DNA of 64,000 nucleotides from Methylophilus sp. TWE2. GTDB lineage: Bacteria > Pseudomonadota > Gammaproteobacteria > Burkholderiales > Methylophilaceae. Below the pieces are notes generated by a model that was not told the origin of the DNA, did no database searches, and saw only the letters and a list, made by a program, of their open reading frames with translations. Numbering within the stretch: the first letter of the stretch is position 1; each line of letters starts with the position of its first letter. The position numbers were made by a program, and so were the translations under genes. This document shows positions 6,378-54,203 of this stretch, in pieces. Location of the stretch: positions 1,853,838 to 1,917,837 of the forward strand of contig NZ_CP012020.1 of the NCBI RefSeq assembly GCF_001183865.1, read 5' to 3'.

Positions 6378-7175
6378 TTAACCTCTCAGTAATGACATCA
6401 CGTTGTTAGGTAACTGGTTAGCTTGTGCCAACATCGCAGTACCAGCTTGTTGCAGAATCTGTGCACGTGTCATCTTGGCGGTTTCTGCAGCAAAGTCAGC
6501 GTCAGTGATACGGGACTTAGCAGCTGCCATGTTCTCAGAAGCCACACCCAGGTTGTTCACTACGGAAGCGAAACGGTTCTGGTAAGCACCCAAGGTCGCA
6601 CGGTTAGTGTTCAAAGTTGTCAACTGTGCATCAATCGCAGTAATTGCTGATGAAGCTGCCGCCGCTGTAGACAAGGAACCAGCCAAGGAAGCCGCTGCAA
6701 CAGAAGCTACGCTGATGGTATCACCGCTGTCAGCACCAATCTGGAAGCTGTAACCTGTACCAAAGGCTGCCTGACCGTTAAATTTGGTTGCTGTACCCAA
6801 ACGAGTCAGTTCTGACTTCAATTGACCGAATTCTGTATTCAGGTTTGCACGGTCACCAGAACTGTAGGAACCGTTAGCAGCCTGTACAGCCAGTTCACGC
6901 ATACGTTGTAATGCGTCTGTTGCACTTGCCAAACCACCTTCTGCAGTTTGCAGGAAGGAAATCGCGTCGTTTGCGTTACGTGTTGCAACTTCCATACCGC
7001 GAACTTGTGAGTCCATACGGGTTGCAATCGCCATACCAGCCGCGTCGTCTTTGGCGCTGTTAATACGCAGACCAGAAGACAAGCGTTGAATAGAAGTATT
7101 CAGGCTTGACTGGTTAGCAGTCAGGTTACGTTGTGCGTTCAATGAAGCCAGGTTGGTGTTAATTACTGAAGCCAT
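6378..7175 (-). CDS. fliC: Flagellin (short form)
   Basis: A 265-residue flagellin. The N-terminal D0/D1 helices are canonical (LNAQRNLTANQSSL, then LSSGLRINSAKDDAAGMAIA at about 32-51), as are the C-terminal ones (NLGVASENMAAAKSRITDAD, then AGTAMLAQANQLPNNVMSLL). The variable outer domain is nearly absent, leaving a short Ser/Ala/Thr-rich linker at about 150-195 (SVAAASLAGSLSTAAAASS). Flagellin is the filament subunit, exported by the flagellar type III system with FliS. An excellent ribosome site (AAAGGAG) and a sigma-28 promoter about 110 bp upstream agree with strong, late-class expression. The Ser/Thr-rich linker is a possible site for O-glycosylation, which matters because sugar- and phosphonate-transfer genes follow nearby. 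Confidence 0.97.
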   Translation of the reverse strand: MASVINTNLASLNAQRNLTANQSSLNTSIQRLSSGLRINSAKDDAAGMAIATRMDSQVRGMEVATRNANDAISFLQTAEGGLASATDALQRMRELAVQAANGSYSSGDRANLNTEFGQLKSELTRLGTATKFNGQAAFGTGYSFQIGADSGDTISVASVAAASLAGSLSTAAAASSAITAIDAQLTTLNTNRATLGAYQNRFASVVNNLGVASENMAAAKSRITDADFAAETAKMTRAQILQQAGTAMLAQANQLPNNVMSLLRG

Positions 7176-7287: not shown

Positions 7288-7314
7288 TTATCGACCGCTT
7301 GCGAAATTTCTTTA
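7288..7314 (-). promoter_or_regulatory. Sigma-28 (FliA) promoter of fliC
   Basis: On the minus strand, TAAAGAAA (-35, 7314-7307) and GTCGATAA (-10, 7295-7288) are separated by exactly 11 bases. The enterobacterial FliA consensus is TAAAGTTT-N11-GCCGATAA, so 13 of 16 positions agree and the spacing is right. Transcription would start near 7280, giving a leader of about 105 bases before the fliC ATG. Confidence 0.85.
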
Positions 7315-7679
7315 ATACTTGTTGCAAATTTCTTTTTCGATCAATCATGCACTTGAAACTATTTACGACCCCTCCACCAAAATCTTTAGCCTTTAATCAA
7401 AAACTGCACAAAATTGTTTATACCAATGCATTCTATAAAAAGAAACGCCATCACTATTAACCGAGCTAAACAGAGAATCAGTCTTAATTCGGCTTTTAAA
7501 CACACCCTTAGCCAACAAGCATTCATGCCACCCATCTCTCATAAGATATAAGGCCCCTTTTCCGCGCTTATCTACAAATCATTCCAAAGCAAAGCCATCC
7601 ATAATCAGGCTATCCATTTCGCATACCTTATATATAGGCCTTATATATCTAGGTAGCAAAGATTATGAAGGAGTTTTGC
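7315..7679. other. AT-rich intergenic region between fliC and the phosphonate operon
   Basis: No convincing gene is visible in these 365 bp. The end nearest the phosphonate operon contains a TATATA-rich stretch (7629-7651) that may hold the operon promoter, followed by the ribosome site AAGGAG at 7668-7673. The region is clearly more AT-rich than the genes around it. Confidence 0.5.
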
Positions 7680-8978
7680 ATGGCATCCGTTTATGTAGGT
7701 ATGACTGTAGACATTCTGCACCATGGCCATATCAATATTATTGAGCAGGCGAGGAAGTATGGCGACGTGACGATTGGCCTTTTGTCAGACGCAGCGGTGG
7801 CAGACCATAAACGCCTGCCCTACCTGACCTATGAACAGCGCAAACAGATCGTCAGCAATATTCGTGGTGTAGTGAATGTCGTGCCGCAGGAAGAATGGGA
7901 TTACGCGCCTAACCTGCTCAAATACAAACCAGACATCATGGTGCATGGTGATGACTGGCTGGAAGGTCCTTTGGTGCCCTACCGTGACCGCGCCCGTGCA
8001 GCGCTGGCTGAATATGGTGGCCACCTGATCGAGATTCCTTATACACGCGGTGTGTCTTCCAATGAAATGTTGAGCCAGATCCAGGCCCTTGGTACCACAC
8101 CGGATATCCGTCGCCGCACCTTGAAACGCCTGCTGACGGTCAAACCGCTTTCACGCTTTATTGAGGCACACAACCCGATCTCGGCATTGATTGCCGAACA
8201 CGTCACAGCACAGCGCAATGGCAAAACCTGCCAGTTTGACGGATTCTGGTCCAGTTCATTAACGGATTCCACCGCGCGTGGCAAACCTGATATTGAAGCA
8301 GTGGAGATCAACAGCCGCTTATCCAATATCAATGACATCTTTGATGTCACCACCAAACCTTTAATTATGGACGCCGATACCGGCGGCAAACTGGAGCATT
8401 TTGAGCTCAATGTGCGCAGCATGGAACGCCTGGGTATTTCTGCCACCATCATCGAAGACAAGATCGGCCTCAAAAAGAATTCTTTGTTTGGTAATGAAGT
8501 ACCGCAATTGCAGGACGAGATCGAGCCTTTCTGCGAAAAAATCGCTGCTGGGCGCGCTGCGCGTGTCAGCGATGATTTTATGGTGATTGCGCGTATCGAG
8601 AGCCTGATTCTGGAAAAAGGCATTGCCGATGCCGTGCAACGCGCACAAGCCTACGTCGGTGCGGGTGTAGACGGCATCATGATTCACAGCCGCCAGAAAA
8701 CGCCAGACGAAGTCTTTGAATTCGCCAAGATTTTCAAATCAGAGTTCCCAACGACGCCTTTAGTGTGTGTGCCCACCAGTTACAACACCGTGACGGAAGA
8801 AGAACTGGCCTTGCGCGGTTTCAATCTGGTGATTTATGCCAACCACATGATGCGTGCGGCCTATCCGGCCATGCAAAATGCGGCCATGGAAATCCTTAAA
8901 AACGGCAGGACCGCAGAAATTGAGTCCAGCCTGATGTCGATTAACGATGTACTGGAACTGATCCCAGGCACTAAATAG
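7680..8978 (+). CDS. Cytidylyltransferase-phosphoenolpyruvate mutase fusion
   Basis: A 432-residue two-domain protein. Residues 1-135 form a small nucleotidyltransferase of the glycerol-3-phosphate/ethanolamine-phosphate cytidylyltransferase fold: the HxGH motif is in DILHHGHINII, and YTRGVSSNEML stands where the family has its RTEGISTT-type motif. Residues about 165-432 are PEP mutase of the isocitrate lyase superfamily: MDADTGG, the diagnostic EDKIGLKKNS, and ARIES. PEP mutase turns phosphoenolpyruvate into phosphonopyruvate, the first C-P bond-forming step of nearly all phosphonate pathways. The start is set at 7680, six bases after AAGGAG; an ATG at 7665 overlaps that ribosome site and is unlikely. 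First gene of a tight six-gene operon. A cytidylyltransferase fused to the committed enzyme suggests the end product is a CMP-phosphonate. Confidence 0.92.
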   Translation: MASVYVGMTVDILHHGHINIIEQARKYGDVTIGLLSDAAVADHKRLPYLTYEQRKQIVSNIRGVVNVVPQEEWDYAPNLLKYKPDIMVHGDDWLEGPLVPYRDRARAALAEYGGHLIEIPYTRGVSSNEMLSQIQALGTTPDIRRRTLKRLLTVKPLSRFIEAHNPISALIAEHVTAQRNGKTCQFDGFWSSSLTDSTARGKPDIEAVEINSRLSNINDIFDVTTKPLIMDADTGGKLEHFELNVRSMERLGISATIIEDKIGLKKNSLFGNEVPQLQDEIEPFCEKIAAGRAARVSDDFMVIARIESLILEKGIADAVQRAQAYVGAGVDGIMIHSRQKTPDEVFEFAKIFKSEFPTTPLVCVPTSYNTVTEEELALRGFNLVIYANHMMRAAYPAMQNAAMEILKNGRTAEIESSLMSINDVLELIPGTK

Positions 8979-9005
8979 GCGTCACCAAATAAGCGGGAGA
9001 CCAAC

Positions 9006-10181
9006 ATGATACATGCCGAGGACTTTTTAAGCGCGTTGCAAGCCGAACAGGTACAGTTCTTTGCAGGCGTCCCTGACTCGTTACTCAAAGAGCTATGCGC
9101 CTGCTTTTCAGACAAACTGGCCGCAGGCCAGCATGTGATCGCAGCCAATGAAGGTGGCGCCATTGGGTTGGCCATCGGTCAATACCTGGCAACCAGACAA
9201 CCGGCCCTGGTCTATATGCAAAATTCCGGCCTCGGCAATATCGTCAATCCAATTGCGTCATTGGCAGATCCACAAGTCTACGGTATTCCTATGTTGCTAG
9301 TCATCGGCTGGCGTGGCGAACTCGATGAACATGGCCAGCAGATCCACGACGAACCCCAGCATGTCAAACAAGGGCAGATCACCCTGTCTCAGCTGGATGT
9401 CATGGATATTCCATACCAAGTCATGACCAGCGAGATCGAATCTGCCCATGCACAAATTCAGACATTATTGAATCAGGCCATTGAGCGACAAGGCCCGGTT
9501 GCCCTGGTGGTACGCAAACAGAGCTTTGCGCCCTACAAAAAAGCAGAAACAAAACCTGAACCGGTCGCCACACTGACTGAGAAATTGCCCACACTGGAAA
9601 GCCGCGAACACATGATCCAGCAGATCGTCTCCGCATTACCAGCAGAGGCGGCAGTGGTGGCCACCACAGGCATGGCTTCACGCGAATTATTTGAATACCG
9701 CAAAGCCCAGCAGGCCGGACATAGCCGTGACTTCCTCACGGTAGGCGGCATGGGGCATGCTTCACAGATTGCCTGCGGCATTGCCTTGGCGCAGCCAGAC
9801 CGACAAGTCATTTGTATTGATGGCGATGGCGCTATGCTGATGCATATGGGCAGCCTGACCATCAGTGCACAGCAATCTAATCTGCTGCATATCGTATTAA
9901 ACAATGGTGCCCATGATTCCGTCGGTGGGCAGCCTACCATCGCCGCACAATTACCATTGGCTGAGATTGCCAGTGCTGCGGGTTATGCGCGGGTCTTCAG
10001 TGTTTCTGGGACAGAAGATCTAAAAACTGTGTTGCAACAGGCAGTGCACAGTAGAAAAAGCAGCTTTATAGAAGTGCTGTGCCGTAAGGGCGCACGTGCA
10101 GATCTGGGTCGTCCAACGCGCACCCCTACACAAAACAAACAAGACTTCATGCAGTTTTTAAACGAGGTGGAATATGCCTGA
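9006..10181 (+). CDS. aepY: Phosphonopyruvate decarboxylase
   Basis: A 391-residue thiamine-diphosphate enzyme, typical length for the family. The N-terminal PYR-type domain has QFFAGVPDSLLKELCA and the catalytic-Glu region AANEGGAIGLAIGQYLA. The C-terminal PP-type domain has the ThDP/Mg motif, GDGAMLMHMGSL followed by NNGAHDSVGGQPT at about residues 275-310. It decarboxylates phosphonopyruvate to phosphonoacetaldehyde, the irreversible step that pulls the unfavourable PEP mutase reaction forward. It lies 27 bp after the PEP mutase gene and overlaps the aminotransferase gene by 8 bp. The symbol aepY is used for this enzyme in phosphonate-containing glycan clusters. Confidence 0.93.
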   Translation: MIHAEDFLSALQAEQVQFFAGVPDSLLKELCACFSDKLAAGQHVIAANEGGAIGLAIGQYLATRQPALVYMQNSGLGNIVNPIASLADPQVYGIPMLLVIGWRGELDEHGQQIHDEPQHVKQGQITLSQLDVMDIPYQVMTSEIESAHAQIQTLLNQAIERQGPVALVVRKQSFAPYKKAETKPEPVATLTEKLPTLESREHMIQQIVSALPAEAAVVATTGMASRELFEYRKAQQAGHSRDFLTVGGMGHASQIACGIALAQPDRQVICIDGDGAMLMHMGSLTISAQQSNLLHIVLNNGAHDSVGGQPTIAAQLPLAEIASAAGYARVFSVSGTEDLKTVLQQAVHSRKSSFIEVLCRKGARADLGRPTRTPTQNKQDFMQFLNEVEYA

Positions 10182-11163
10182 AGCCACCATTCATAGCCAT
10201 GTCGCTGCGCAAAATGCACGCAAAGCGCTGTTCACAGCGGGGCCTGCCAGTTTGCTGGAGGAAAACCTGCTCGGTCTGCGGCCCTGTTTTGGCCGTGGTG
10301 ACCAGGATTACAGCCAGGTAGATGAAGCTGTGCTCACCGCACTGAAAACCATGACCGGCCACGCCCAAATTGCGCGTTTGCAAGGTTCTGCCAGCCTGGC
10401 GCTTGAAATTGCCAGCCTGAACTTCCTGTATGGCAAGGTATTGGTCGTAGATAGCGGCTATTACGCCCAGCGCCTGGTCAGCTTCGCACAAATGGCGCAA
10501 CGCAATGCCGGCCAGGTCTCATCAGTTACGGTCTGCGACTGGCAGGAAATCACTACCGCCAATGGCAACTACGACTGGGTCGTCGCTTGCTATACCGAAA
10601 CTAGTGCCGGATTATTGTTACCCATAGGCGATTTACGCACCCTGGCAGACCGCGTGGGCGCCCAGTTGATGCTGGACGCGACTGCCTCTATCGGCCTGGA
10701 AGCCGATCACGGGCTGGCAGAGGTCATTGCCTACAGTTCTTGCAAAGGCCTGTTTGGCCTGACAGGCGCCTCATTTATTGCCTTTAACCAATTACCTAAA
10801 AACGAAATCGATTCGTTTTACCTCAGCCTGGCCACACACCTCGATCGGCGCATGACGGGTCCCTACCACGCCATCGCCTCTTTATACGAGGTGCTACCCA
10901 AACATGCTGATTTACGCGAGGCTGTGTTTATCAACAAGGCCAGGATGCTAAAAAAAATTGCATCTTATGCCACGCATCCTATGCCCTACCAACCCGCCTT
11001 ATGTACTTGGGTCGATGCCAAGGTAACCAGCCAGGATGCACGTGCAGTGCTATACCAACCTCGCGGCATCAGCCATGGTAGCGTGGTATGTCATTTGGGA
11101 GAGGCGCATCTGGGCAGCCAGGCACGCGGCGATATTCTTGATTTACTGGAGTTACAGCCATGA
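10174..11163 (+). CDS. Class V aminotransferase, probably 2-aminoethylphosphonate:pyruvate transaminase
   Basis: A 329-residue PLP enzyme of fold type I. It begins with the family's TAGPASLLEE-like segment (compare TPGP in PhnW). LMLDATASIGLEAD near residue 165 supplies the cofactor-binding Asp, and SSCKGLFGLTGASFIAF near 190 the Schiff-base Lys. In this context it should aminate phosphonoacetaldehyde to 2-aminoethylphosphonate (AEP). It is shorter than PhnW (about 365 residues), with a trimmed C-terminal domain, so the substrate is inferred from the two genes before it rather than from sequence alone. Overlaps: 8 bp with the decarboxylase, 4 bp (ATGA) with the next gene. Confidence 0.8.
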   Translation: MPEATIHSHVAAQNARKALFTAGPASLLEENLLGLRPCFGRGDQDYSQVDEAVLTALKTMTGHAQIARLQGSASLALEIASLNFLYGKVLVVDSGYYAQRLVSFAQMAQRNAGQVSSVTVCDWQEITTANGNYDWVVACYTETSAGLLLPIGDLRTLADRVGAQLMLDATASIGLEADHGLAEVIAYSSCKGLFGLTGASFIAFNQLPKNEIDSFYLSLATHLDRRMTGPYHAIASLYEVLPKHADLREAVFINKARMLKKIASYATHPMPYQPALCTWVDAKVTSQDARAVLYQPRGISHGSVVCHLGEAHLGSQARGDILDLLELQP

Positions 11164-11573
11164 CGGCACCACAAAAACGCATTATGGTCGATATGTCCGC
11201 CACGCTGATCCACCATGGCCATGTCCGCCTGTTAAAAGCCGCCAAACAATTGGGTCATGTCATCGTCGCCCTGACCACGGATGAAGAGATTCGCAGCAAA
11301 AAGGGCTACGAACCCGAACTCAATTATGCGGCGCGCGCAGAGGTGCTTCTAGCCATGCGTGATGTGGACGAAGTGGTCCCCAGTCCATGGCTGCTAGACG
11401 ATGCTTTTTTAGCGTTGCACCAGATTGATTTACTGGTACACGGTCACGATAACAGCAACCCGATTGCAGCCGAAAAATTACATATCCTGCCGAGAACCGA
11501 GGGCATCAGCAGTACGCAGCTGCGTGCCCGCGTGCTCAAGGCAGTCAGTCAAAAAATGGAAGCGAACGTATGA
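11160..11573 (+). CDS. Stand-alone cytidylyltransferase
   Basis: A 137-residue nucleotidyltransferase with both hallmark motifs of the TagD/PntC-like group: HxGH in ATLIHHGHVRLLKAAK at about residues 15-30, and RTEGISSTQLRARV at about 111-124. Enzymes of this fold transfer CMP from CTP to a small phosphorylated alcohol or a phosphonate. It is a second such domain in the operon, besides the one fused to PEP mutase. One could make CMP-AEP and the other a related donor such as CMP-N-methyl-AEP, CMP-hydroxyethylphosphonate or CDP-glycerol; the sequence does not decide. It is joined to its neighbours by ATGA overlaps on both sides, so tight translational coupling is likely. Confidence 0.85.
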   Translation: MTAPQKRIMVDMSATLIHHGHVRLLKAAKQLGHVIVALTTDEEIRSKKGYEPELNYAARAEVLLAMRDVDEVVPSPWLLDDAFLALHQIDLLVHGHDNSNPIAAEKLHILPRTEGISSTQLRARVLKAVSQKMEANV

Positions 11574-12268
11574 GTAACCTTTGGCAAAACATTTGGGAAA
11601 AACGCAGCTTGCAACCGCAACATGCCATCACGCTGGATACGCTGATTGCATTGGACGGTTTTGATAGTGGTGCAGGCAAAATCGCCCTGCCCGACTGGCA
11701 GGAATATACCCACCGCATCAGCGAAAAACTGGGCATGCAGTCCGGTGATTCTGTCTTTGAGGTCGGTTGCGGTGCTGGAGCCTTTTTATATGCTTTGCGT
11801 CAGCAATATCCGCTTAGAGTTGGCGGGCTGGATTATGCAGCCGGATTGATTCAAGCGGCTCAACAAGCCATGCCGGATGGCGACTTCAGTGCACAATCGG
11901 CACAAACCATGGCCATTGATCCTCAATACGATTTTGTCATTGCCAATAGCGTATTTCATTATTTTGACGAAGCGATGGCCGCAGAAGTGTTTAATGCCAT
12001 GTGGCAAAAAGCCAAGGTTGGCGTCGCCATACTGGATATCCCACATGCCGCGACTAAAGAGGAATGTGAACGTGCCCGCCGCGATGCGCTGAGCGAGGCA
12101 GAATATGAAGAAAAATACCGCGGCTTGCACCATACCTATTACAACCCAGACTGGTTTGCCAATCAATTGCCGGGCAAACCTCACCAGGTATTTGAAAGCT
12201 GCGTGCCTAATTATGCACAAAGCCAATATCGTTTCAGTGTCATTTTCTCAAAACGCTTGCATGGATAA
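11570..12268 (+). CDS. Class I SAM-dependent methyltransferase
   Basis: A 232-residue protein with the Rossmann SAM-binding motif VFEVGCGAGAFLYAL at about residues 61-75, an acidic motif-II end in VGGLDYAAGLI, and YDFVIANSVFHYFDE as motif IV. The acceptor cannot be read from the sequence. Because it sits inside the phosphonate operon (ATGA overlap upstream, 6 bp to the next gene), likely acceptors are the amino group of AEP (N-methylation) or the CMP-linked head group. Alternatives are sugar O-methylation on the glycan that receives the phosphonate. Confidence 0.82.
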   Translation: MSNLWQNIWEKRSLQPQHAITLDTLIALDGFDSGAGKIALPDWQEYTHRISEKLGMQSGDSVFEVGCGAGAFLYALRQQYPLRVGGLDYAAGLIQAAQQAMPDGDFSAQSAQTMAIDPQYDFVIANSVFHYFDEAMAAEVFNAMWQKAKVGVAILDIPHAATKEECERARRDALSEAEYEEKYRGLHHTYYNPDWFANQLPGKPHQVFESCVPNYAQSQYRFSVIFSKRLHG

Positions 12269-12274
12269 ACCATC

Positions 12275-13666
12275 ATGACGAATACAAATTCACGTCGCCC
12301 CGTGTTCACCTTCTTTTATACCGACAATTGTGAGCGCCAGGCGTTAGCGCCTGTGGCCGATGAAATGGCCAACCGCGGTTACCCGGTACAATGGAGTATG
12401 GACTCGAAGCAATATGCCGAAGTCGGTGTGTATTGCGAGCACGCCTGTAAACCCAATGCCGGTTTCTCAGTCGTGTTACTGCATGACTTGGCGCAGCGTC
12501 ATGATATCTGGCCACACTTCTGGCATTACGAACCCTGGACGGCATTTGACATGGGTATCTTGCCGGGACCCGCTTGGGTGGAGCGTTGGCAAACACAAGC
12601 CAACTTCAAACAAGCACGACCCAAATTGGGGATGTTTGATCTGGGCTGGCCCAAAGCAGACCTGGTGTACCGCAACCAGGAAACCTTCAAGCAGGAAGCG
12701 CAAAAGTTGCGCGAACAACTGGGGCTCAAATACGAGCATTCCATCCTCTATGCGCCTTCATGGGAAAACCACGGCAAGCAGGACGAGTTTGTGCAAAGCC
12801 TGAAGGACCTACCGGTCAACCTGTTGCTAAAACAGGCCCCCTGGTCAGAAAAATACCGCTGGGTACTGAACAATATTGACGAGATGGATGCCTTGCACAG
12901 AAACTGCGCAGACAACGTGTATGTGATAGACCGTGAAATCAGCATCATGTACTGCCTGGGCCTGGCCGATGTGATGGTCTCGGATGAGTCCAGCGTACTG
13001 ACCGAAGCTTTGCTACTGGATGTGCCGGGCATTGCCGTGACCGACTGGCTGATCCCGGATACCAACCCACCGCGCCACGCCAGTGTGCCCTATGATTACG
13101 TGATTAAAACAGTGAGAGCAGACCTGCGCAAAACCGTAGAACACGTGCTGCAGCACTCTGCGGAGTACCAGCAGCAAATCGCGTTCAACAAACAGCACCA
13201 GTTTGCCCATTTAGGACAAAGTGCCACCTTAATTGCAGATAATATCGAAGCAGCCTTGTCTGGTGAGACTGAATTACCGACGCCAGCTATCAAGGCGCAA
13301 GTCGATATCGACCGCATCACCTACCAGCATGCCGAGAAACTGGCCGCCGAAGGTGACCTGCAACTCTCTACCCAGATGATGCTGGAACTGATTAAAAAAG
13401 ACAGTGGCTGCTGGGAGCCGTATAACGACCTGGGCACCCTATTGGTCAATCAGGGGCAACTGGAAGATGCTGAACTGCTACTCGAAAAAGCGGTGCTGCT
13501 GGCACAGGAAAATCCTACCATCCCATTGAGTAACCTGACCGAAGTGTATTGTCTGCAACAAAAGGCCGACAAGGCCTTAGCTACCCTAGCTAAGCTCAGC
13601 AAATATACGCCTAACCCTGGTGGCTCAATCCCGCATATCCGCCGTTGCATGGAAACCATGTTTTAG
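12275..13666 (+). CDS. CDP-glycerol glycerophosphotransferase-like transferase with TPR tail
   Basis: A 463-residue protein. The first ~330 residues resemble the catalytic domain of the CDP-glycerol:polyglycerophosphate transferase family (TagB/TagF type). It has YAPSWENHGKQDEF, where the family has its first conserved segment, and VSDESSVLTEALLLDVPGI at about residues 232-250, the analogue of the family's D-SS motif. Residues about 350-455 form TPR-like helices (YNDLGTLLVNQGQLEDAELL). Members move a phospho-alcohol from a CMP carrier to an acceptor. In this operon the natural donor is CMP-AEP, so it would be the enzyme that decorates a glycan or protein; the TPR part may recruit the acceptor. 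Donor and acceptor are inference. It ends the operon, followed by a strong terminator. Confidence 0.75.
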   Translation: MTNTNSRRPVFTFFYTDNCERQALAPVADEMANRGYPVQWSMDSKQYAEVGVYCEHACKPNAGFSVVLLHDLAQRHDIWPHFWHYEPWTAFDMGILPGPAWVERWQTQANFKQARPKLGMFDLGWPKADLVYRNQETFKQEAQKLREQLGLKYEHSILYAPSWENHGKQDEFVQSLKDLPVNLLLKQAPWSEKYRWVLNNIDEMDALHRNCADNVYVIDREISIMYCLGLADVMVSDESSVLTEALLLDVPGIAVTDWLIPDTNPPRHASVPYDYVIKTVRADLRKTVEHVLQHSAEYQQQIAFNKQHQFAHLGQSATLIADNIEAALSGETELPTPAIKAQVDIDRITYQHAEKLAAEGDLQLSTQMMLELIKKDSGCWEPYNDLGTLLVNQGQLEDAELLLEKAVLLAQENPTIPLSNLTEVYCLQQKADKALATLAKLSKYTPNPGGSIPHIRRCMETMF

Positions 13667-13682
13667 GTTTACACTACTCACT

Positions 13683-13711
13683 AAAAAATCCGGCCTCGTG
13701 CCGGATTTTTT
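13683..13711 (+). terminator. Intrinsic terminator of the phosphonate operon
   Basis: AAAAAATCCGGC (13683-13694) and GCCGGATTTTTT (13700-13711) form a perfect stem with a 5-base loop and T-tract. The flanking A-tract makes it potentially bidirectional. Confidence 0.9.
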
Positions 13712-13743
13712 ATGGCCTTTAACGCTGCGAGTCACATATAAAA

Positions 13744-13771
13744 AAAGCATGCACATTTCTGTGCATGCTTT
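13744..13771 (-). terminator. Intrinsic terminator of the giant glycosyltransferase gene
   Basis: AAAGCATGCACA (13744-13755) pairs with TGTGCATGCTTT (13760-13771) around the loop TTTC; read on the minus strand the stem is followed by seven T. It lies 18 bp beyond the stop codon of the 2.5k-residue protein. Confidence 0.85.
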
Positions 13772-13789
13772 ATGCCGATTACTCACAGA

Positions 13790-16700
13790 CTAAGTAAACA
13801 GCTGACGCACTGGCAACTCTGCACGCGTAAACTCAGCGGTTAAACCGTTCACTTGATGCTCAGGGGCACCTTGCGTCATATTTTGCAGGCGGTTGAACAC
13901 ACTGATAAAGGCCTGCAACTGGTCATCCCTATAGTGGTATCCATTGAGTTCCAGCACCGCCAACGTCAAGCTGCCAATATTGCCTGGAGTGCCGGCATGT
14001 GGTTTGGCGCAACTGCGAACGCGATGCAAGGTGAGGAACAAGCCACGTAATGCTACAAATGCCACAGGCAAAGGAATCGCAAAATCCCACTCCAGGTCAA
14101 AGAAATGTCCCTGCCCGCTCTTGTCCATGACAAAGTTAGTGGGGGTGGCATCAAAATACTGCGAAGGCAATAATGCTGAATACCCCGCAAATTCTGGCAA
14201 GGTCTTGCCAGCATTGAGGGTAGCAGCTTCCAGGCCTTTCAGCCAGGGCGAAGCCCAAGCGGCCAGGTCTTCTACACGCCAGCCAGGACGGTTCATGAGC
14301 TGGGTGAGTTTATCCATCCACAACTGACCGCCATGATAAGGCGCCTGCTCCCAGGCAGCCTGCAGCAATCGTGCTGTTTCGCCGGTATTGCGGGTACGCG
14401 TCACCACCCCCTGCCCGTCATACACGAACTGGGTTTCCTTGCTAAATACCGCCTGGCGCTGGCTGCCATAATGCGCGGCCAATACTTCAGGATGTAACTT
14501 AGCAGACTGGCGTTGCGGGTAAGCCACAAACATAAATGAGTTGGCGACATCTTCTACCAGATTGTTACGTGCAATCACTTGCCAGGCATTTTCCAGCGAG
14601 AATGTTGGATGGCGTGGGGATTGCCTGTCATGCACGACAGAACCTGCCGCCAGTGCACCAACATCCCAGCCAACTGCACGATGTGCCTGGTTAAAACCTT
14701 CCGGGTAAATCACGCTGACCGGGGTTTTGTAGTCAGGCAATGGCACATACAATTCAGTGGTTTCAAAACCGGCACTGCGGATCAATGCATCCAGCTCCAC
14801 GCGGCCAAAGGTAATCGGGCTGGTTGTGCTGTAAGAATCATTGATGCCGTACATGGCCTGTCCCATATGGTCTTCAGGCGCACCGCAGAAATATTTGAGG
14901 CCAAGCTGATTTTCAATGGCGACAATCAGCATGCCATCTTCTTTAAGGAAAGACTTGGCAGTCTGCAACAGGAAGCGCAAAGGATCGGGTTCCTTGACAT
15001 ACACCTGGGCATATTCAAGCACGCCGATCAACGTCACCACATCAAATTTCTCGTCCGTTTCAAATGACTGGATCAAATCAGAATAAATCGTCACATTCTT
15101 GAGATCTGCGCACCGCTGGCCAATGACGCGGGCACGGTTCGGGCTACCTTCCAGCGCAACTACCTCACCGCCCAGCTCACCCAGGAAGCGCGTGATCGCA
15201 CCACAACCCGCGCCAAGCTCCAGAATCTTGCCGTTGGCAATCTTGTCTGCAAACGGGCGTAACAAATTGGCACGCTGTGACGTCAAATGGTAGTAGCTAG
15301 GCCAATCTGTCGCTTTGGCTGACAACTCAGTAGAGAATACGCTCTTGTCACGGGACTGGCGGATCATGTCGTACAAACGCTGTTCTGCATTGCCGACATC
15401 CTGATAGCCAAAGGCTTCGGTTTGCGCACGCTGGTAGAAGTTATCTTCAGCACGGTAAATATAGGGGCCTTTACTGCCCTTGGCCGCAGCGCCAGTTGGG
15501 GTTACAGCCTGGCGATACTTTAGCTGCAAGGCATCCGCATCTGCGGTGGCCAGGCCGTTCTGGCGGGCAAAAGTAATCACATCCAGCACCTCGCTGCTGG
15601 GTGCTGTCAAGGACAATACTTCAATATAAGCCTGCCAGTAAGCGGCCTGCTGAGGTGCCAGGATCACGGCTTGCTCCAGCAAAGGCAATGCGTCTGTGGT
15701 TTTACCAGTCTGCGTCGCTAGCAAGCCCAGCTGGAAATAAGTCGGTGCATGTTTGGCGTCAATATTCAAAATTTCCTGATAAAGGCTCATCGCCTGTGCA
15801 GACTCGCCTTTCTCCTGCATTTGTACCGCCAGTTGAAACACCTCTGCAATCGAATCTTTCAATTCATTGGCTTGAGGAGTTGGGTTGAGTGTTGTGTTCA
15901 TAGAATAACCTTTATCAGGGGTTTCAGTCACAGAGGTGACAGGAGAGTTCGAAGAAATTGCAAATGGTGTAGCCGCTTGGCCTTGGCACCAGGTTTGCCA
16001 CATATGGCGTAGCGCTTGTGATAATGCTTGCGCCAACGGCGCTGGTTGCGCCAGTGGCGAACCGGCAAAGCGTGGGCGCAACTGCGCGCGCAGGCTTGCC
16101 AGGGCTTGTAAATCAGAAAGTACAATCTGTGCTTGTTGAAGAAGATGCTGCGACTGATCTGCCACCCAGTCTTGTAATCCCAGATGTTGCATCAGAGCCA
16201 TGGCACCGCGACTCGCCAGTCGGTCACCCGCCACGCATAGGGTAGGCACACCCATCCATAAGGCATGTGCGGTCGTCGTCACGCCATTTGACGGGAAGGT
16301 ATCCAGGCACACATCTATCAGGTGATACTGTTTCAAATAACCCGCCATGTCTGTGCGCGGGAAAAATGACAGACGGTCTGCTGTGATGCCAGCCTGGGTA
16401 AACCAGTCTTGCAGATGGTTATAACTACCTGCCTCACCCATGCCGCCCAACACCATGCGGCTACCTGGATGAGCTTGCATCAATGAGGCCCAATGCTCAA
16501 CCGCGGTATGGGTAATTTTGTTCGGGCGGTTAAAGCAGCCAAAGGTTAAATAACCATTAGTTAATGCAGGCAGGTCATTCACTGCTGGTGCTTGCGGATG
16601 CGGCTCAAACGGTGCATTCACAGGTAATTGAACCAGTTTCTCGCTGAACTGCTGATCAAACTGACCAGGCGGCAACAAGGCGCTATCGGCCAGGTAATAA

Positions 16701-19700
16701 TCGATGGCAGCCAGGCCTGTACTATTGAGGTAACCCAGCCAGCTGACCTGCACAGGCGCTGGTTTTCTGGCAAAAGCCAACAAACGGTTACCTGAGGTGT
16801 GGCCAGACAAGTCAATTAGGATATCAATGCCATCTTCACGGATGCAGTCAGCCAGTGCCTCATCAGACAAATTTGCAACGACACGCCACTGTTTGAAATA
16901 AGGCCGCATCTCGGTTGTGACTTCATCTTCTAGCGTGTAATTGGCGTAAGCAAACAATACCAGCGTGTTATCTTGTGCCAGGGCAGGCAATAACGGCAGC
17001 AGGAAATGCGCAACCGAGTGTGCCCGTAAATCTGCAGAGACAAACCCTACACGTAATGGACGCTTGGCATCTCGCGAATTGGCGTGTTGTTGCCAATGTG
17101 TTTTCAGAGGAGTTTCGTATAACTCGGCATAGGCGGCATGGGCTTGCTCTAAGGCGGCAGTATCTACGCTTTCAGCATGGGTCATGCAAAACAGCAGGTT
17201 ACTGAAACAGTCCGCATACTCAGGCTTGATCAGCAAGGCCTGCTTGAATTGCTGAATCGCTTGTTCGACTTCACCCAGGTCTTTGAGCACTATGCCCAGA
17301 TTGTTATAGGCCGCCGCATAGTCAGGCTTAAGCTGGATGGCATTCCTGAAAGCTTCAGCCGCTGCCACCAGATCATTCTGCGCTTTGAGCACCAGGCCAT
17401 AATAGCAATGCTCCTCTGCATCCCCGGCATTCAGCAACAGTGCTTGTGCAGCGGCGTCACGCGCATCCTTTTTCTGGATCATGAGCACATCAGCCAGCAT
17501 TTTCCAGCCACCAAGCCAGGCGGGATACTCTTGCAGCAAGGTTTGCAAGGCTTGCTCCATCTGTGCGTAGTCTTGCTGCTCAAACAGTTTGAGAATCGCC
17601 TCTTGTTGCTGGATTGAAGGGTGTGTATTTGGTGCAGCTTCCGGCAAAGCGATCTGCCATTCCTGCATCAGGGCTTGCAATGCTTGTGCATGCTGGCCAT
17701 GACGGATAGCGGTTGCCACCACTTGCTCCAACGCGGCCTGTTCATGGGTAGTGTGTAAGGCTGTGAGATAGCTGCTCAACAATTGCCATTGTGCAGGCGC
17801 CAGAGCATATGCTTGGGCAAAGTGTGCGATAGCTTGTGTCTGCTGGCCTGTGTGCCATTCAATCAGGCCCAGGTTATGCATCGCTAGCGCATGCTGGGCA
17901 TCCACCGCCAGAATTTCCTGGTAAAGCTGTTTGGCAGTGGTGAAATCCCCCTGTTGCTGTGCGGCTGAGGCCAAGTCGAACACTTCTGCCATGGAGTCTT
18001 GCAAGGCGCTAGAAGCCGGTTGCTCAACCGTTACAGGCTCCCATTTCTGACGGTAGCTCAGGTAGGTTTCACGCCAGCGTGCACTACCAAACGCGCCGCC
18101 ACTTTGGTGGGTCATACGCACAGGCCATACGCCTAGCTTCAAGCCAGCCTGCGTAGCTGTACGGCAGAAGTCAAGATCATAGAAATGAAATTCGAATTGG
18201 GGATCAAAACGTACGCCACTTTCTAATAGCGTTTTCTTTTGCGCCGCAAGGAATACACCATCCATAAGCTGGCAATCACCAGCAGCATCGCCATAACTGG
18301 AAGACGGCCCAAACGCGTGCATGCCATGGCTGACTGCACCGCGCAGGTATTTGGCATCGTCCCAGGTGAACTGCAAATCAATAAAGCACCAGCCAGGCTG
18401 GCCAGGTTGTATGCGTGCGTTACCAGCCACGCCGATCACATCAAAGTGTGTGAGCCCACGTTGTATGGTTTGTACAAAGGTATTTTCATCGAGCCAGACA
18501 TCGTCGTGGATCAAGACCAGCAGCGCATTCTCTGGCGCGGCTGCGATGGCCGCATTAAATACCTCGGACAAGCCCCGCGTATTTTCATAGGCAACTACTG
18601 GCACCAGGCGCTTATCTTGCTGCATATGGCGCTTGAGTGAACGGCCCAAGGCTGAGTCACGCCAGAAAGCGGTTTCGGTCATGCGGGTAGCACTGACGAC
18701 CCAGACGGGCTCACTGCCGGAAAAAGCTTCTTGCACGGGTGCCTTTGCCAACAATTGCTGTGGCTTTAAGGCAGGCAGCACCTGTTGCCACAGGCCAAAC
18801 AGCAATTGTTCAAAATCCTGCGCAAACTGTTTGGCATTCATTAATGGCGAAGCCAACACCTGTGCGCGCAAAGTTGCCCTTAGTAAGGACAAGGCATCCA
18901 GATCACTGGCGAAGGTAATTGCCTTGTGCACATACTCTTCCCGTGTGTTGGCAATCCAATCCGGCAAACCGGCACAATGCATAAAACTGGCACCCTGACG
19001 GGCAATCAGCGTATCGCCAAGCAACGTCACGGTAGGCACACCCATCCACAACGCTTCGCAGGTGGTCGTACCGCCCGTAAACGGGAATGTATCCAGAATC
19101 ACATCAATCTGGTGATGATTACGCAGGTATTCTTCCCTTGCCACCATCCCGTACAAGGTGCAGCGTGTGGCTGCAATGCCATATTTTGCCAATCTTGCCA
19201 GGGCCTGTTCGCAGATCAATTGATCGCTGAACGCCTTGGTTTGCCAGAACAATCGGGCGTTGGGCAGTGCTTGCAGGATTTCGCCCCAGCAGGCCAATAC
19301 CTCATCGCTGACTTTGCTGTAATTCTGGAAACAACCAAAGGTGACCGCACCGGTACTCAGTGCTGGTAAAGGATTCACTTCAATCTCAAACGGCGGCGCA
19401 GTGAAACACATGCGTGTGTGTGGCAGGTGCACCACCTGCTCGGTAAATTGTTTGGCTACGTCGGCATTGATACTGACTGGATCGGCAATCACATAGTCCA
19501 TGACTGGCAAACCGGTTGTCCCCCAGTATCCCAGCCATGTCGCCTGCACTGGGGCAGGTTTATGGGCAAAAATAGGTAGACGTGTACCGCCAGATAAACC
19601 AGACAAATCCAGCAGGATATGGATGCCGTCTTCACGAATATGTTTGGCTGCCTGGGCGTCGGTGAGGCCAGCCAGCGAACGCCACTGGTTACATAAGTCT

Positions 19701-21280
19701 TTGAGTTCGTGCGAGAAGGCATCTTCACGGCCATCTGTGGAATATCCATAAATCTCCAGTCGGCTGGCATCAAATGTCTGCAACCACTGGTGCAGGAAGT
19801 AACCAACGGGGTGTTTACGTAAATCGGCAGAAACCAGGCCAATACGCAAGCGCTGCTCCTGGGCATGCACTTGCCAGCTATCGTAAGGCGTCACTTCCTT
19901 CATCATGGCCGCGCCCAGCCTATGAGCGTAATCCAGGCTCTCATTGAGCGGCAAGGTATTGCTGTAACTATTGGCAAACAGCAGGTTTCTGAGTGCCATC
20001 ATATGGCCAGGTTCAATGACGAGTGCTTTTTGCAGGGTACGGATGGTGGTCTCAATCTGCCCCATATCCAGGTAGACATTGGCCAGGTTGATGTAACCTG
20101 CCATAAATTCAGGATGAATCCGCAAGGCTTGTTCTAGTTTAGCAATCGCCTCTGTGTAGCGGCCCAGCATGCGCAGGCTGATACCATAATTACTCAAAAC
20201 ACTCTCAGAGTCCGGCAACTGCTCCAGGGCTTTTTCAAAGTGCTGGCAAGCCTTGTCAAAGGCATTCCTGGCGTTCTCGATCAGGCCCAGGTTGGCTTGT
20301 ACATAAGGGTTATCCGGATCAGCTTGCAACGCTTTGTGGCAATAAGCTTCAGCCTCAGCATATAAATGCTGGTTGAACATTTCAGTGGCCAGGTTATTGA
20401 GTGCCTCTGCGCTGAAATCCTGTTTCAGCATGATCTGGTCAATATAAGCCTGGTACTCCCGCATGCGGTGGGTTGCGCGATAGAGTCTGGCCAGGTTTTT
20501 CAATAATGATAATTCGGCAGGATCCAATGCCAGGCCAGCCAATAACCACTGTTCAGCCTCTTCTGTATCACCGTGTTGCAAATACAATGCACCCAGATGG
20601 CTATAAGCCTGTACATAGTCGCGCTGGAGAGCGATGGTCTGCTGAAAAGCATCCATCGCTTCTGTGGTATTGCCCAATTGCTCCAAGGCCACCGCCATAT
20701 TGAAAAAGATGACGGCATTATCGGGTTCAATCTCCACCGCTTCACGGTAATATTGAATCGCTTCCAATGGCTTTTCTGCTTCATGCAGCAAGGTCGCCAG
20801 TTCAAAATTGACACGGCCATCCTGCTGATGAATATTCAGGCCACGGCGCAACACTTTTTCTGCCTCTTTCAATTTCCCTGTCTGTTTCAGCACGCTAGCC
20901 CAGTTAGCATAGGCCTGGCTGAAAGCGGGGTTTAACTTGAGTGTCTGGCGATAATATTTGATGGCTTGGGCATCGTCTTGCAATTGTGCATAGACATTGG
21001 CCAGGTTATAAAGGACCTCGGCATCTTTTTTCAGGCACTTGCTTGCTTGCAAAAACGCCTCAGCGGCGGCCGTTAAATGATCTTGTTGTTGATACAGGCT
21101 GCCAAGTAACTTCCAGGCCAAGCCTTCTTCAGGAAACTCACGCGTAATCTTTTGCGCCAGCGTCAGGCACTGCACCCACTCGCCCTCCTTCCAGGATTGC
21201 ATCAGCGCTTGCATCCAATGGCTGCAATCCTGCGCAGTTGCGGCAGCTGTCGATTGCAAATGGCCCGGCGAGTGTTTCAT
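13790..21280 (-). CDS. Giant multidomain glycosyltransferase: TPR-GT41-GT2-TPR-GT41-TPR-methyltransferase
   Basis: A single frame of about 2496 residues. TPR array at about 30-430; first GT41 (OGT/SPINDLY-like) domain at 475-830 (RIGLVSADLRKHPVGYFLH, then GGTTTCEALWMGVPTVTLLG); GT2-like domain at 855-1080 (LIHDDVWLDEN acidic motif); second TPR block to 1390; second GT41 domain at 1400-1760 (RVGFVSADLRAHSVAHFL, then GVTTTAHALWMGVPTLCVAG); third, short TPR block at 1800-1910; SAM methyltransferase at 1990-2190 (ILELGAGCGAITRFLGEL); then about 300 residues with a kinase-like DATPTNFVMDKSG and FFDLEWD pair. Start uncertain: ATG at 21280 chosen over TTG at 21316, neither with a good ribosome site. 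GT41 enzymes O-glycosylate proteins, and TPRs bind the acceptor. Likely a flagellin or surface-protein glycosylating machine, convergent with the phosphonate operon; the acceptor is inferred. Confidence 0.88.
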   Translation of the reverse strand: MKHSPGHLQSTAAATAQDCSHWMQALMQSWKEGEWVQCLTLAQKITREFPEEGLAWKLLGSLYQQQDHLTAAAEAFLQASKCLKKDAEVLYNLANVYAQLQDDAQAIKYYRQTLKLNPAFSQAYANWASVLKQTGKLKEAEKVLRRGLNIHQQDGRVNFELATLLHEAEKPLEAIQYYREAVEIEPDNAVIFFNMAVALEQLGNTTEAMDAFQQTIALQRDYVQAYSHLGALYLQHGDTEEAEQWLLAGLALDPAELSLLKNLARLYRATHRMREYQAYIDQIMLKQDFSAEALNNLATEMFNQHLYAEAEAYCHKALQADPDNPYVQANLGLIENARNAFDKACQHFEKALEQLPDSESVLSNYGISLRMLGRYTEAIAKLEQALRIHPEFMAGYINLANVYLDMGQIETTIRTLQKALVIEPGHMMALRNLLFANSYSNTLPLNESLDYAHRLGAAMMKEVTPYDSWQVHAQEQRLRIGLVSADLRKHPVGYFLHQWLQTFDASRLEIYGYSTDGREDAFSHELKDLCNQWRSLAGLTDAQAAKHIREDGIHILLDLSGLSGGTRLPIFAHKPAPVQATWLGYWGTTGLPVMDYVIADPVSINADVAKQFTEQVVHLPHTRMCFTAPPFEIEVNPLPALSTGAVTFGCFQNYSKVSDEVLACWGEILQALPNARLFWQTKAFSDQLICEQALARLAKYGIAATRCTLYGMVAREEYLRNHHQIDVILDTFPFTGGTTTCEALWMGVPTVTLLGDTLIARQGASFMHCAGLPDWIANTREEYVHKAITFASDLDALSLLRATLRAQVLASPLMNAKQFAQDFEQLLFGLWQQVLPALKPQQLLAKAPVQEAFSGSEPVWVVSATRMTETAFWRDSALGRSLKRHMQQDKRLVPVVAYENTRGLSEVFNAAIAAAPENALLVLIHDDVWLDENTFVQTIQRGLTHFDVIGVAGNARIQPGQPGWCFIDLQFTWDDAKYLRGAVSHGMHAFGPSSSYGDAAGDCQLMDGVFLAAQKKTLLESGVRFDPQFEFHFYDLDFCRTATQAGLKLGVWPVRMTHQSGGAFGSARWRETYLSYRQKWEPVTVEQPASSALQDSMAEVFDLASAAQQQGDFTTAKQLYQEILAVDAQHALAMHNLGLIEWHTGQQTQAIAHFAQAYALAPAQWQLLSSYLTALHTTHEQAALEQVVATAIRHGQHAQALQALMQEWQIALPEAAPNTHPSIQQQEAILKLFEQQDYAQMEQALQTLLQEYPAWLGGWKMLADVLMIQKKDARDAAAQALLLNAGDAEEHCYYGLVLKAQNDLVAAAEAFRNAIQLKPDYAAAYNNLGIVLKDLGEVEQAIQQFKQALLIKPEYADCFSNLLFCMTHAESVDTAALEQAHAAYAELYETPLKTHWQQHANSRDAKRPLRVGFVSADLRAHSVAHFLLPLLPALAQDNTLVLFAYANYTLEDEVTTEMRPYFKQWRVVANLSDEALADCIREDGIDILIDLSGHTSGNRLLAFARKPAPVQVSWLGYLNSTGLAAIDYYLADSALLPPGQFDQQFSEKLVQLPVNAPFEPHPQAPAVNDLPALTNGYLTFGCFNRPNKITHTAVEHWASLMQAHPGSRMVLGGMGEAGSYNHLQDWFTQAGITADRLSFFPRTDMAGYLKQYHLIDVCLDTFPSNGVTTTAHALWMGVPTLCVAGDRLASRGAMALMQHLGLQDWVADQSQHLLQQAQIVLSDLQALASLRAQLRPRFAGSPLAQPAPLAQALSQALRHMWQTWCQGQAATPFAISSNSPVTSVTETPDKGYSMNTTLNPTPQANELKDSIAEVFQLAVQMQEKGESAQAMSLYQEILNIDAKHAPTYFQLGLLATQTGKTTDALPLLEQAVILAPQQAAYWQAYIEVLSLTAPSSEVLDVITFARQNGLATADADALQLKYRQAVTPTGAAAKGSKGPYIYRAEDNFYQRAQTEAFGYQDVGNAEQRLYDMIRQSRDKSVFSTELSAKATDWPSYYHLTSQRANLLRPFADKIANGKILELGAGCGAITRFLGELGGEVVALEGSPNRARVIGQRCADLKNVTIYSDLIQSFETDEKFDVVTLIGVLEYAQVYVKEPDPLRFLLQTAKSFLKEDGMLIVAIENQLGLKYFCGAPEDHMGQAMYGINDSYSTTSPITFGRVELDALIRSAGFETTELYVPLPDYKTPVSVIYPEGFNQAHRAVGWDVGALAAGSVVHDRQSPRHPTFSLENAWQVIARNNLVEDVANSFMFVAYPQRQSAKLHPEVLAAHYGSQRQAVFSKETQFVYDGQGVVTRTRNTGETARLLQAAWEQAPYHGGQLWMDKLTQLMNRPGWRVEDLAAWASPWLKGLEAATLNAGKTLPEFAGYSALLPSQYFDATPTNFVMDKSGQGHFFDLEWDFAIPLPVAFVALRGLFLTLHRVRSCAKPHAGTPGNIGSLTLAVLELNGYHYRDDQLQAFISVFNRLQNMTQGAPEHQVNGLTAEFTRAELPVRQLFT

Positions 21281-21520
21281 AAAAGAGAAGTCCAAAGATT
21301 TTCTCTTATTATTCAAAACTATGAAGCAGATGCATCGCTTAAAAAAAGCGGAAAAAACCAGTTATCTTCACTGTTCGCCTGATGCGCATTTGAATGGTAT
21401 TGCCCGCTAAGCCGCATGGATATTGGCCCCATGGGCAAAAAAGGAGGTTAGGCTGTGATTGATGCAAGAAAATGATTATTCAAGAAAAGATGGAATCCAC
21501 CGTAAATGTTGGCCAGCATA

Positions 21521-53324: not shown

Positions 53325-54203
53325 ATGCAACAAATCACTACAGCAGGTGCACGTTTCCGCGCAGCGCTGGCAGCCGAAAAGCCGCTACAAATCATAGGCG
53401 CGATTAATGCCTACCATGCCATGCTGGCCACCCAATCCGGGTTTAAGGCCATCTATCTGTCTGGTGGCGGTGTCGCTGCGGGTTCTTTAGGTCTGCCTGA
53501 TCTCGGCATTTCTGGTCTGGAAGATGTGCTGGTAGATGTCCGCCGTATTACTGATGCTGTGGATACCCCATTGCTGGTCGATATTGATACCGGCTTTGGC
53601 GGCGCATTCAACATTTCGCGCACCATTAAAAGTGTCGCCAAGGCTGGCGCAGCCGCCGTGCATATTGAAGACCAGGTCAGTGCCAAACGCTGTGGCCACC
53701 GCCCCAACAAGGCAATTGTCAGCCTGGACGAAATGGTAGACCGCGTCAAAGCGGCGGTGGATGCCAAACCTTATGATGATTTTGTCGTCATGGCTCGCAC
53801 CGATGCACTGGCGGTAGAGGGTTTGCAATCCGCCATCGACCGCGCCTGTGCCTGTGTGGAAGCCGGGGCCGACATGATTTTTCCGGAAGCGATGACGGAA
53901 TTAGGCATGTATAGGCAGTTTGTAGATGCCGTCAAAGTCCCCGTATTGGCGAATATCACCGAATTCGGTTCTACGCCTTTGTTTACGGTAGAGGAGTTGG
54001 CCACCGCTGGCGTAGGCATGGTGCTGTATCCATTGTCTGCATTCCGTGCCATGAACCAGGCCGCACTCAAGGTCTATCAGGGGGTGCGCAAGGATGGCAC
54101 CCAGAAGAATGTTTTAGACCTGATGCAGACACGTGCCGATTTGTATGAGCACCTGGGCTATCACGCTTTTGAACAGAAACTAGACGCGCTTTATAAGAAA
54201 TAG
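53325..54203 (+). CDS. prpB: 2-Methylisocitrate lyase
   Basis: A 292-residue isocitrate-lyase-superfamily enzyme, normal PrpB length. It has [20 protein letters not shown], then [18 protein letters not shown], and the catalytic loop KRCGHRPNK at about residues 122-130 with the active Cys. It splits 2-methylisocitrate into succinate and pyruvate. It follows the CACAGAG hairpin, 117 bp after the CitE-like gene, and precedes prpC by 39 bp. Confidence 0.96.

Follow-up and report, generated by a model that had tools for sequence, protein, structure and literature searches.

Among the closest described counterparts of the locus reported here, as far as the available portions of the cited accounts extend, is the type A cluster cd0240-cd0244 of C. 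difficile 630, which likewise lies beside fliC (PMC10714395). In that pathway, as in the scheme proposed below, flagellin first receives a sugar, after which a nucleotidyltransferase, the methyltransferase CD0243 and the TagF-like phosphotransferase CD0244 attach an N-methylated amino compound via its phosphorus; the role proposed for CD0244 is the transfer of phosphothreonine from CDP-threonine onto flagellin GlcNAc (PMC10714395). The flagellin GlcNAc of C. difficile also carries some 2-aminoethylphosphonate (2-AEP), reported as an ion near m/z 126.03, and the accessible part of that study states that pepM was not found there (PMC8861647). A related arrangement occurs in P. aeruginosa PAO1, where, as of 2014, type A orthologues were found clustered at the flagellar locus in that strain only (PMC4441256); its b-type genes PA1088-PA1091, like those of the present locus, place a methyltransferase, a nucleotidyltransferase and a phosphotransferase at the flagellar locus, with glycosyltransferase and phosphotransferase united in one protein (PMC11833859).

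Two further systems concern phosphonates proper. The Pnt pathways, exemplified by Treponema denticola PntC, share with this locus a PepM-nucleotidyltransferase fusion and rely on CMP-AEP as the activated donor, PF01467 being fused to 23.6% of PepM proteins (PMC6697681). In Prochlorococcus SB, a PepM-dependent phosphonate is proposed to reside on a protein-linked glycan, as is proposed here (PMC8931226).

Organization of the locus

The locus occupies positions 7680-21280 of the window (the whole 64,000-nucleotide stretch that was analysed) and belongs to the 3.08-Mb single-contig genome of a methanol-consuming bacterium of the genus Methylophilus, near M. methylotrophus. Its gene order is fliC, then pepM-ppd-AT-CT2-MT-PT, then a convergent giant TPR-GT41 gene, the AT-CT2-MT reading frames overlapping by a few bases. 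Every element named in an initial annotation of this DNA was recovered at its position, including the flagellin locus on one side of the operon and the convergent giant on the other. The features are as follows.

6378..7175, minus strand: fliC, flagellin of 265 aa (Pfam/NCBIfam flagellin), proposed acceptor
7288-7314, minus strand: sigma-28-like promoter of fliC, 1 mismatch, surrounding region conserved
7680..8978, plus strand: pepM, PEP mutase with N-terminal Fom1-like cytidylyltransferase domain (TIGR02320, PF01467, motifs)
about 7686-8084 and about 8121-8972, plus strand: cytidylyltransferase (CT) and mutase domains of pepM, respectively
9006..10181, plus strand: ppd, phosphonopyruvate decarboxylase (TIGR03297)
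10174..11163, plus strand: AT, divergent AEP-transaminase-like aminotransferase, proposed to convert phosphonoacetaldehyde to AEP (TIGR03301 below cut-off, PDB 7e7g)
11160..11573, plus strand: CT2, stand-alone cytidylyltransferase, proposed CTP:AEP cytidylyltransferase (PF01467)
11570..12268, plus strand: MT, SAM-dependent methyltransferase, proposed to N-methylate AEP or CMP-AEP (Methyltransf_25)
12275..13666, plus strand: PT, TagF-type phosphotransferase with C-terminal TPR, proposed CMP-AEP:glycan phosphonotransferase (PF04464)
13790..21280, minus strand: giant TPR-GT41 protein (PF13844, 357.8 bits; TPRs; Methyltransf_12)
about 18782-19873 and about 15956-17086, minus strand: GT41a and GT41b domains of the giant, respectively
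about 13793-15463, minus strand: C-terminal methyltransferase and kinase-like-motif domain of the giant

The start of pepM is most likely the ATG at 7680, behind a conserved AAGGAG. A search of the pepM strand upstream of the gene found no sigma-28-like site with two or fewer mismatches. The exact palindrome ATACCTTATATAAGGTAT lies 5' of the pepM ribosome-binding site in five Methylophilus genomes (G093, G120, G110, G081 and G036), and window 7622-7655 holds a longer, imperfect version of it; a role as an operator is possible.

Predicted phosphonate synthesis, activation and methylation

The first two enzymes of the operon bear out their annotation as PEP mutase and phosphonopyruvate decarboxylase. 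PepM scores 409.1 bits against the curated model TIGR02320 (cut-off 319.55) and carries EDKIGLKKNS, an instance of the EDK-x5-NS signature, together with HHGH and YTRGVSS, while Ppd reaches 483.1 bits against TIGR03297 (cut-off 312.5). The third enzyme had been called a class V aminotransferase, a label that held in part: AT matched no Pfam family at E 0.001, scored 70.5 bits with TIGR03301, far under the AEP-transaminase cut-off of 360.8, and resembled the AEP transaminase of PDB 7e7g at E 1.5e-12, so that the label denotes a weak similarity to AEP-transaminase models. PhnJ was not found in the genome, and AEP therefore looks like an end product. Elsewhere in the window, at 53358-54122, a second gene of the PEP mutase/isocitrate lyase superfamily scores 116.9 bits, under the PepM cut-off, and is probably methylisocitrate-lyase-like.

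As annotated, two cytidylyltransferase domains are present, both PF01467, one at the PepM N-terminus and the other being CT2, three genes downstream; thus a nucleotidyltransferase accompanies PepM, as in Pnt pathways. The PepM-fused domain is nearest to PDB 5x3d (158 bits), which we take to be the CT domain of Fom1 from fosfomycin synthesis, and the best PDB match of CT2 is an ethanolamine-phosphate cytidylyltransferase (67 bits). Both retain HxGH and T-x-G-[IV]-S-S, presumably the functional motifs of CT domains. The best evidence that CT2 may activate AEP comes from locus L050, where a CT2 relative (65% identical) is fused to an aminotransferase that exceeds the TIGR03301 cut-off (379.8 bits). 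Taken together, the PepM, Ppd and cytidylyltransferase families lend support to the annotated AEP-type phosphonate synthesis with cytidylyl activation. Two nucleotidyltransferases recur in every cluster type examined for number, as two PF01467 proteins or domains in Methylophilus and L050 (L050:9467-13412) and as two PF12804 counterparts in L066 (L066:4573-9245) and L067 (L067:4686-9279). The second one per cluster counts against the reading preferred below, since one would do.

MT belongs, as annotated, to the SAM methyltransferases (Methyltransf_25), with a weak PDB match to phosphoethanolamine N-methyltransferase, and in both P0050 and P0098 an MT domain is joined to a PT-like sequence as a fusion.

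Phosphotransferase and glycosyltransferase

The description of PT as a CDP-glycerol-type phosphotransferase with TPRs is upheld by a PF04464 score of 29.1 bits (gathering score 22.1) and by TPR matches. The best PDB matches in a profile search were Cps3D (2.8e-9), TagF (4e-4) and TarL (0.019); the predicted structure (pLDDT 90.7) has TagF as its top Foldseek match (E 9e-12), and by VIA-align the model fits UDP-GlcNAc 2-epimerases equally well as TagF. From its family and the linked cytidylyltransferases, we infer that PT uses a CMP-linked donor. The PT of M. methylotrophus DSM 46235 is 99% identical to that of the window. A second PF04464 protein is encoded in the genome at G000:C1:1115908-1116783, in an open frame of 1022 aa.

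The giant, whose most likely start is the ATG at 21280 and not the TTG farther upstream at 21316, comprises TPRs, two GT41 domains (PF13844 lying behind the TPRs) and a C-terminal methyltransferase domain by Pfam. Its GT41a domain is closest to the bacterial TPR-GT41 protein 5djs (252 bits) and to SPINDLY (250 bits). In its C-terminal part (13793-15463), the methyltransferase is followed by a DxTPxN...DLEW motif, which in our reading resembles kinase loops; whole-length WbdD matches are weak.

Proposed pathway

What is observed is which genes are present, the families they belong to, and their conservation, linkage and fusions. From these we infer the following pathway, including each of its reactions, the position that is methylated and the molecule that serves as acceptor. 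PepM and Ppd would convert PEP to phosphonoacetaldehyde, from which the divergent aminotransferase would form AEP, and CT2, the PepM-fused CT domain or both would yield CMP-AEP. MT would, probably, N-methylate the amine of AEP, either ahead of activation or following it. While flagellin is still in the cytosol, before its export, the TPR-GT41 giant would place on its Ser/Thr residues one or more sugars, to which PT would then transfer (N-methyl-)AEP from CMP, leaving a phosphonate diester. Our preferred reading, to which we assign a probability of roughly 0.6 on sequence evidence, is thus that the locus is a flagellin-glycan island with a phosphonate-capping cassette, in which a GT41-installed sugar on flagellin is capped by (N-methyl-)AEP. 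Its logic would be that of the type A and b-type flagellin systems of two unrelated pathogens, C. difficile and P. aeruginosa PAO1, with a C-P aminophosphonate replacing phospho-N-methylthreonine.

Conservation in the Methylophilaceae

Full-length PepM was found in 14 of 150 family genomes, namely 11 of the genus (the window's own included), two of Methylotenera (g7) and one incomplete g10 genome. All 11 genus genomes that have a complete pepM (the window's and 10/10 others, 22 searched) preserve the order fliC-pepM-ppd-AT-CT2-MT-PT-GT41; with a related arrangement in Methylotenera, this answers the suggestion of the initial annotation to look for this gene order in other Methylophilaceae. In six Methylophilus comparisons, the PepM protein is 91-99% identical, with its fused CT domain as conserved as the mutase, against 31-60% at four-fold sites of the locus outside fliC. 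Because the order recurs in ten other genus genomes and PepM is conserved against diverged four-fold sites, the locus is not a chance assembly. Of 22 genus genomes, 13 have PT, and exactly these 13 also have the C-terminal domain of the giant (Fisher p 2e-6), a co-occurrence that is not independent because the genomes are related; in two of these 13 the cluster lies on short contigs. A search for fliC succeeded in 20 of the 22 genomes.

Variation around fliC extends to relatives that lack the operon. Among 21 of these, GT41-like genes lie within the fetched stretch around fliC in ten, often a short way upstream of it in the same orientation and in several cases ending less than 1 kb from it; FdtA with FdtB sugar genes occurs near fliC in eight, and ten, a number of which are at contig ends, have neither at fliC. 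FdtA/FdtB were sought in the window and in operon-bearing loci of Methylophilus, Methylotenera and Andreprevotia, and none was found there; among the operon-bearing loci searched, FdtB-like matches (31%) appeared in L067 and L068 only. These neighbourhoods resemble interchangeable modules of a single flagellin-glycan island. In one Methylophilus relative (L070:8559-15132), three fliC copies have FdtA/FdtB amino-sugar genes among them.

Related loci and alternative acceptors

Sixteen PT loci were compared, two of them on short contigs, and counts refer to the 14 untruncated ones. All 14 carry pepM and ppd, and 11, in Methylophilus, most Methylotenera and Andreprevotia, also keep fliC.

In Methylotenera (L048, L049, L064), a TPR-GT41 gene precedes the operon and the giant's C-terminal part follows it as its own gene. 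The Methylophilus giant therefore joins genes that flank the operon elsewhere, which ties it to the operon as had been supposed. Immediately after the C-terminal gene comes fliC in L048 and L064; in L049 (genome G027) it lies 22 kb from the cassette. Methylotenera G102 (L051:8566-9523) retains only fragments of pepM, CT2 and PT, between both remaining GT41 parts, and such loss of the cassette with retention of the glycosyltransferase fits a cap added late.

The link to fliC, which the annotation had taken as its guide to the target, survives this rearrangement and recurs beside a very different PepM in Andreprevotia sp. IGB-42 (L066), only 34% identical in the mutase and fused at its C-terminus to PF12804. 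There the order is PepM, Ppd, AEP transaminase (362 bits against the TIGR03301 cut-off of 360.8), a second PF12804 gene, MT, a 2061-aa PT protein, fliC, flaG and fliD, with MT 51% and PT 60% identical to those of the window and the 2061-aa protein uniting PT, the giant's C-terminal domain, RgpF and GT2 domains.

A PepM type similar to that of L066 occurs in a Pseudomonadota MAG (L067) and in Accumulibacter (L068), where PT and the C-terminal partner are also present; at E 1e-10, L068 gave no match to MT. These two cassettes adjoin ABC2-membrane and Wzt-like (Wzm/Wzt-like) polysaccharide ABC exporters and glycosyltransferases, no fliC lies within about 10 kb, and the flagellins are on other contigs; the cassette is therefore not confined to flagellin. 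Synteny with an unrelated capsule or lipid locus, which the initial annotation had named as grounds for abandoning its proposal, is thus seen in part, in two loci, against 11 of 14 that keep fliC. The same pair lends weight to the strongest alternative, that the cassette places AEP on a surface polysaccharide or LPS and its proximity to fliC is incidental or shared. According to the available part of one account, the targets of most phosphonate clusters are believed to be surface glycans and lipids (PMC6697681), and a second PF04464 protein exists elsewhere in this genome. We nevertheless regard that alternative as unlikely, given the retention of fliC, the GT41 protein glycosyltransferase as partner, the differing islands beside fliC in relatives, and Pfam scans of the operon, giant and immediate neighbours in which no flippase, polymerase or exporter was seen.

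Less likely still is that the giant and the cassette modify some other exported or cytosolic protein through general O-glycosylation. GT41 enzymes are not specific to flagellin, and G102 keeps its GT41 gene and C-terminal partner on a different contig from fliC. In Prochlorococcus SB, moreover, phosphonate occurs in the protein fraction (PMC8931226, as far as available). Against this stand the GT41-like genes near fliC in operon-less relatives and the recurrence of fliC linkage in Andreprevotia. A diffusible phosphonate, or a CMP-phosphonate other than CMP-AEP, is brought to mind by the Fom1-like CT domain and the divergent aminotransferase, but is highly improbable given the AEP transaminases above the curated cut-off at equivalent positions in L066 and L050 and the glycan enzymes PT and GT41.

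Phosphonate capping of a flagellin glycan thus remains the preferred reading, with several points against it in the sequences: the exporters of L067 and L068, the distance of fliC in G027, the sub-cut-off AT, the lack of a sigma-28-like site at pepM and the tie of the PT model with epimerases. An extended form, for which the balance is about even, would hold that the encoded N-methyl-AEP, activated with CTP, caps a GT41-installed flagellin sugar by means of a TagF-family CMP-phosphonate transferase; that the cassette is one exchangeable module in a glycan island that varies beside fliC, and has been built up around two PepM types that differ greatly; and that a further step is contributed by the methyltransferase with kinase-like motif at the C-terminus of the giant.

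Comparison with known systems

If the preferred reading is true, PF04464 would include a new kind of CMP-phosphonate transferase, phosphonate chemistry would reach motility organelles, and type A logic could, it seems, be built with a non-hydrolysable C-P bond. The source of the 2-AEP on C. difficile flagellin is not known, as far as the available account goes (PMC8861647); a culturable genus without pathogenicity, Methylophilus, appears to encode the full route, which makes phosphonate-decorated flagella directly testable.

The claim of the initial annotation that no system of this kind had been described was too strong, precedents being 2-AEP on flagellin (PMC8861647) and the type A (PMC10714395) and b-type (PMC11833859) pathways. 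Differences from each are nonetheless evident in the accessible portions of these accounts. In the Pnt pathways LicD-like phosphotransferases have been noted and wall glycans serve as targets, unlike the PF04464 transferase, GT41 and fliC of the window, and the available text makes no mention of flagella (PMC6697681). Prochlorococcus SB is assigned an en bloc route that is lipid-linked and uses PglC, Wzx and PglL (PMC8931226); the window proteins scanned showed none of these. The PAO1 b-type pathway uses GT2 where the window has GT41, builds deoxyhexose-phospho-N,N-dimethylthreonine and, in the part available, is described without a PEP mutase, unlike the window (PMC11833859).

Like the type A and b-type clusters, the window joins fliC to a glycosyltransferase, a nucleotidyltransferase, a methyltransferase and a TagF-like phosphotransferase. 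The phosphoserine-phosphatase-like maker of phosphothreonine (CD0241/PA1089) was not found among the six operon genes; type A, as described, draws phosphothreonine from CD0241, whereas the window has PepM, Ppd and an aminotransferase, which would form a C-P bond. CD0242 resembles sugar nucleotidyltransferases and CT2 is of the PF01467 class, while the core sugar is added by CD0240 in type A and, by our proposal, by GT41 here. In the literature searched, no system combined PF04464 and GT41 with an encoded PepM route. A resemblance of CD0244 to TagF (3l7m) and to UDP-GlcNAc 2-epimerase has been described (PMC10714395), and PT matches both of these folds as well. Because PT shares these resemblances, and in view of the PAO1 and 2-AEP precedents, the window may be read as a C-P analogue of the type A pathway: AEP on flagellin is already known from C. 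difficile, and this locus would be a variant in which the PepM route is encoded.
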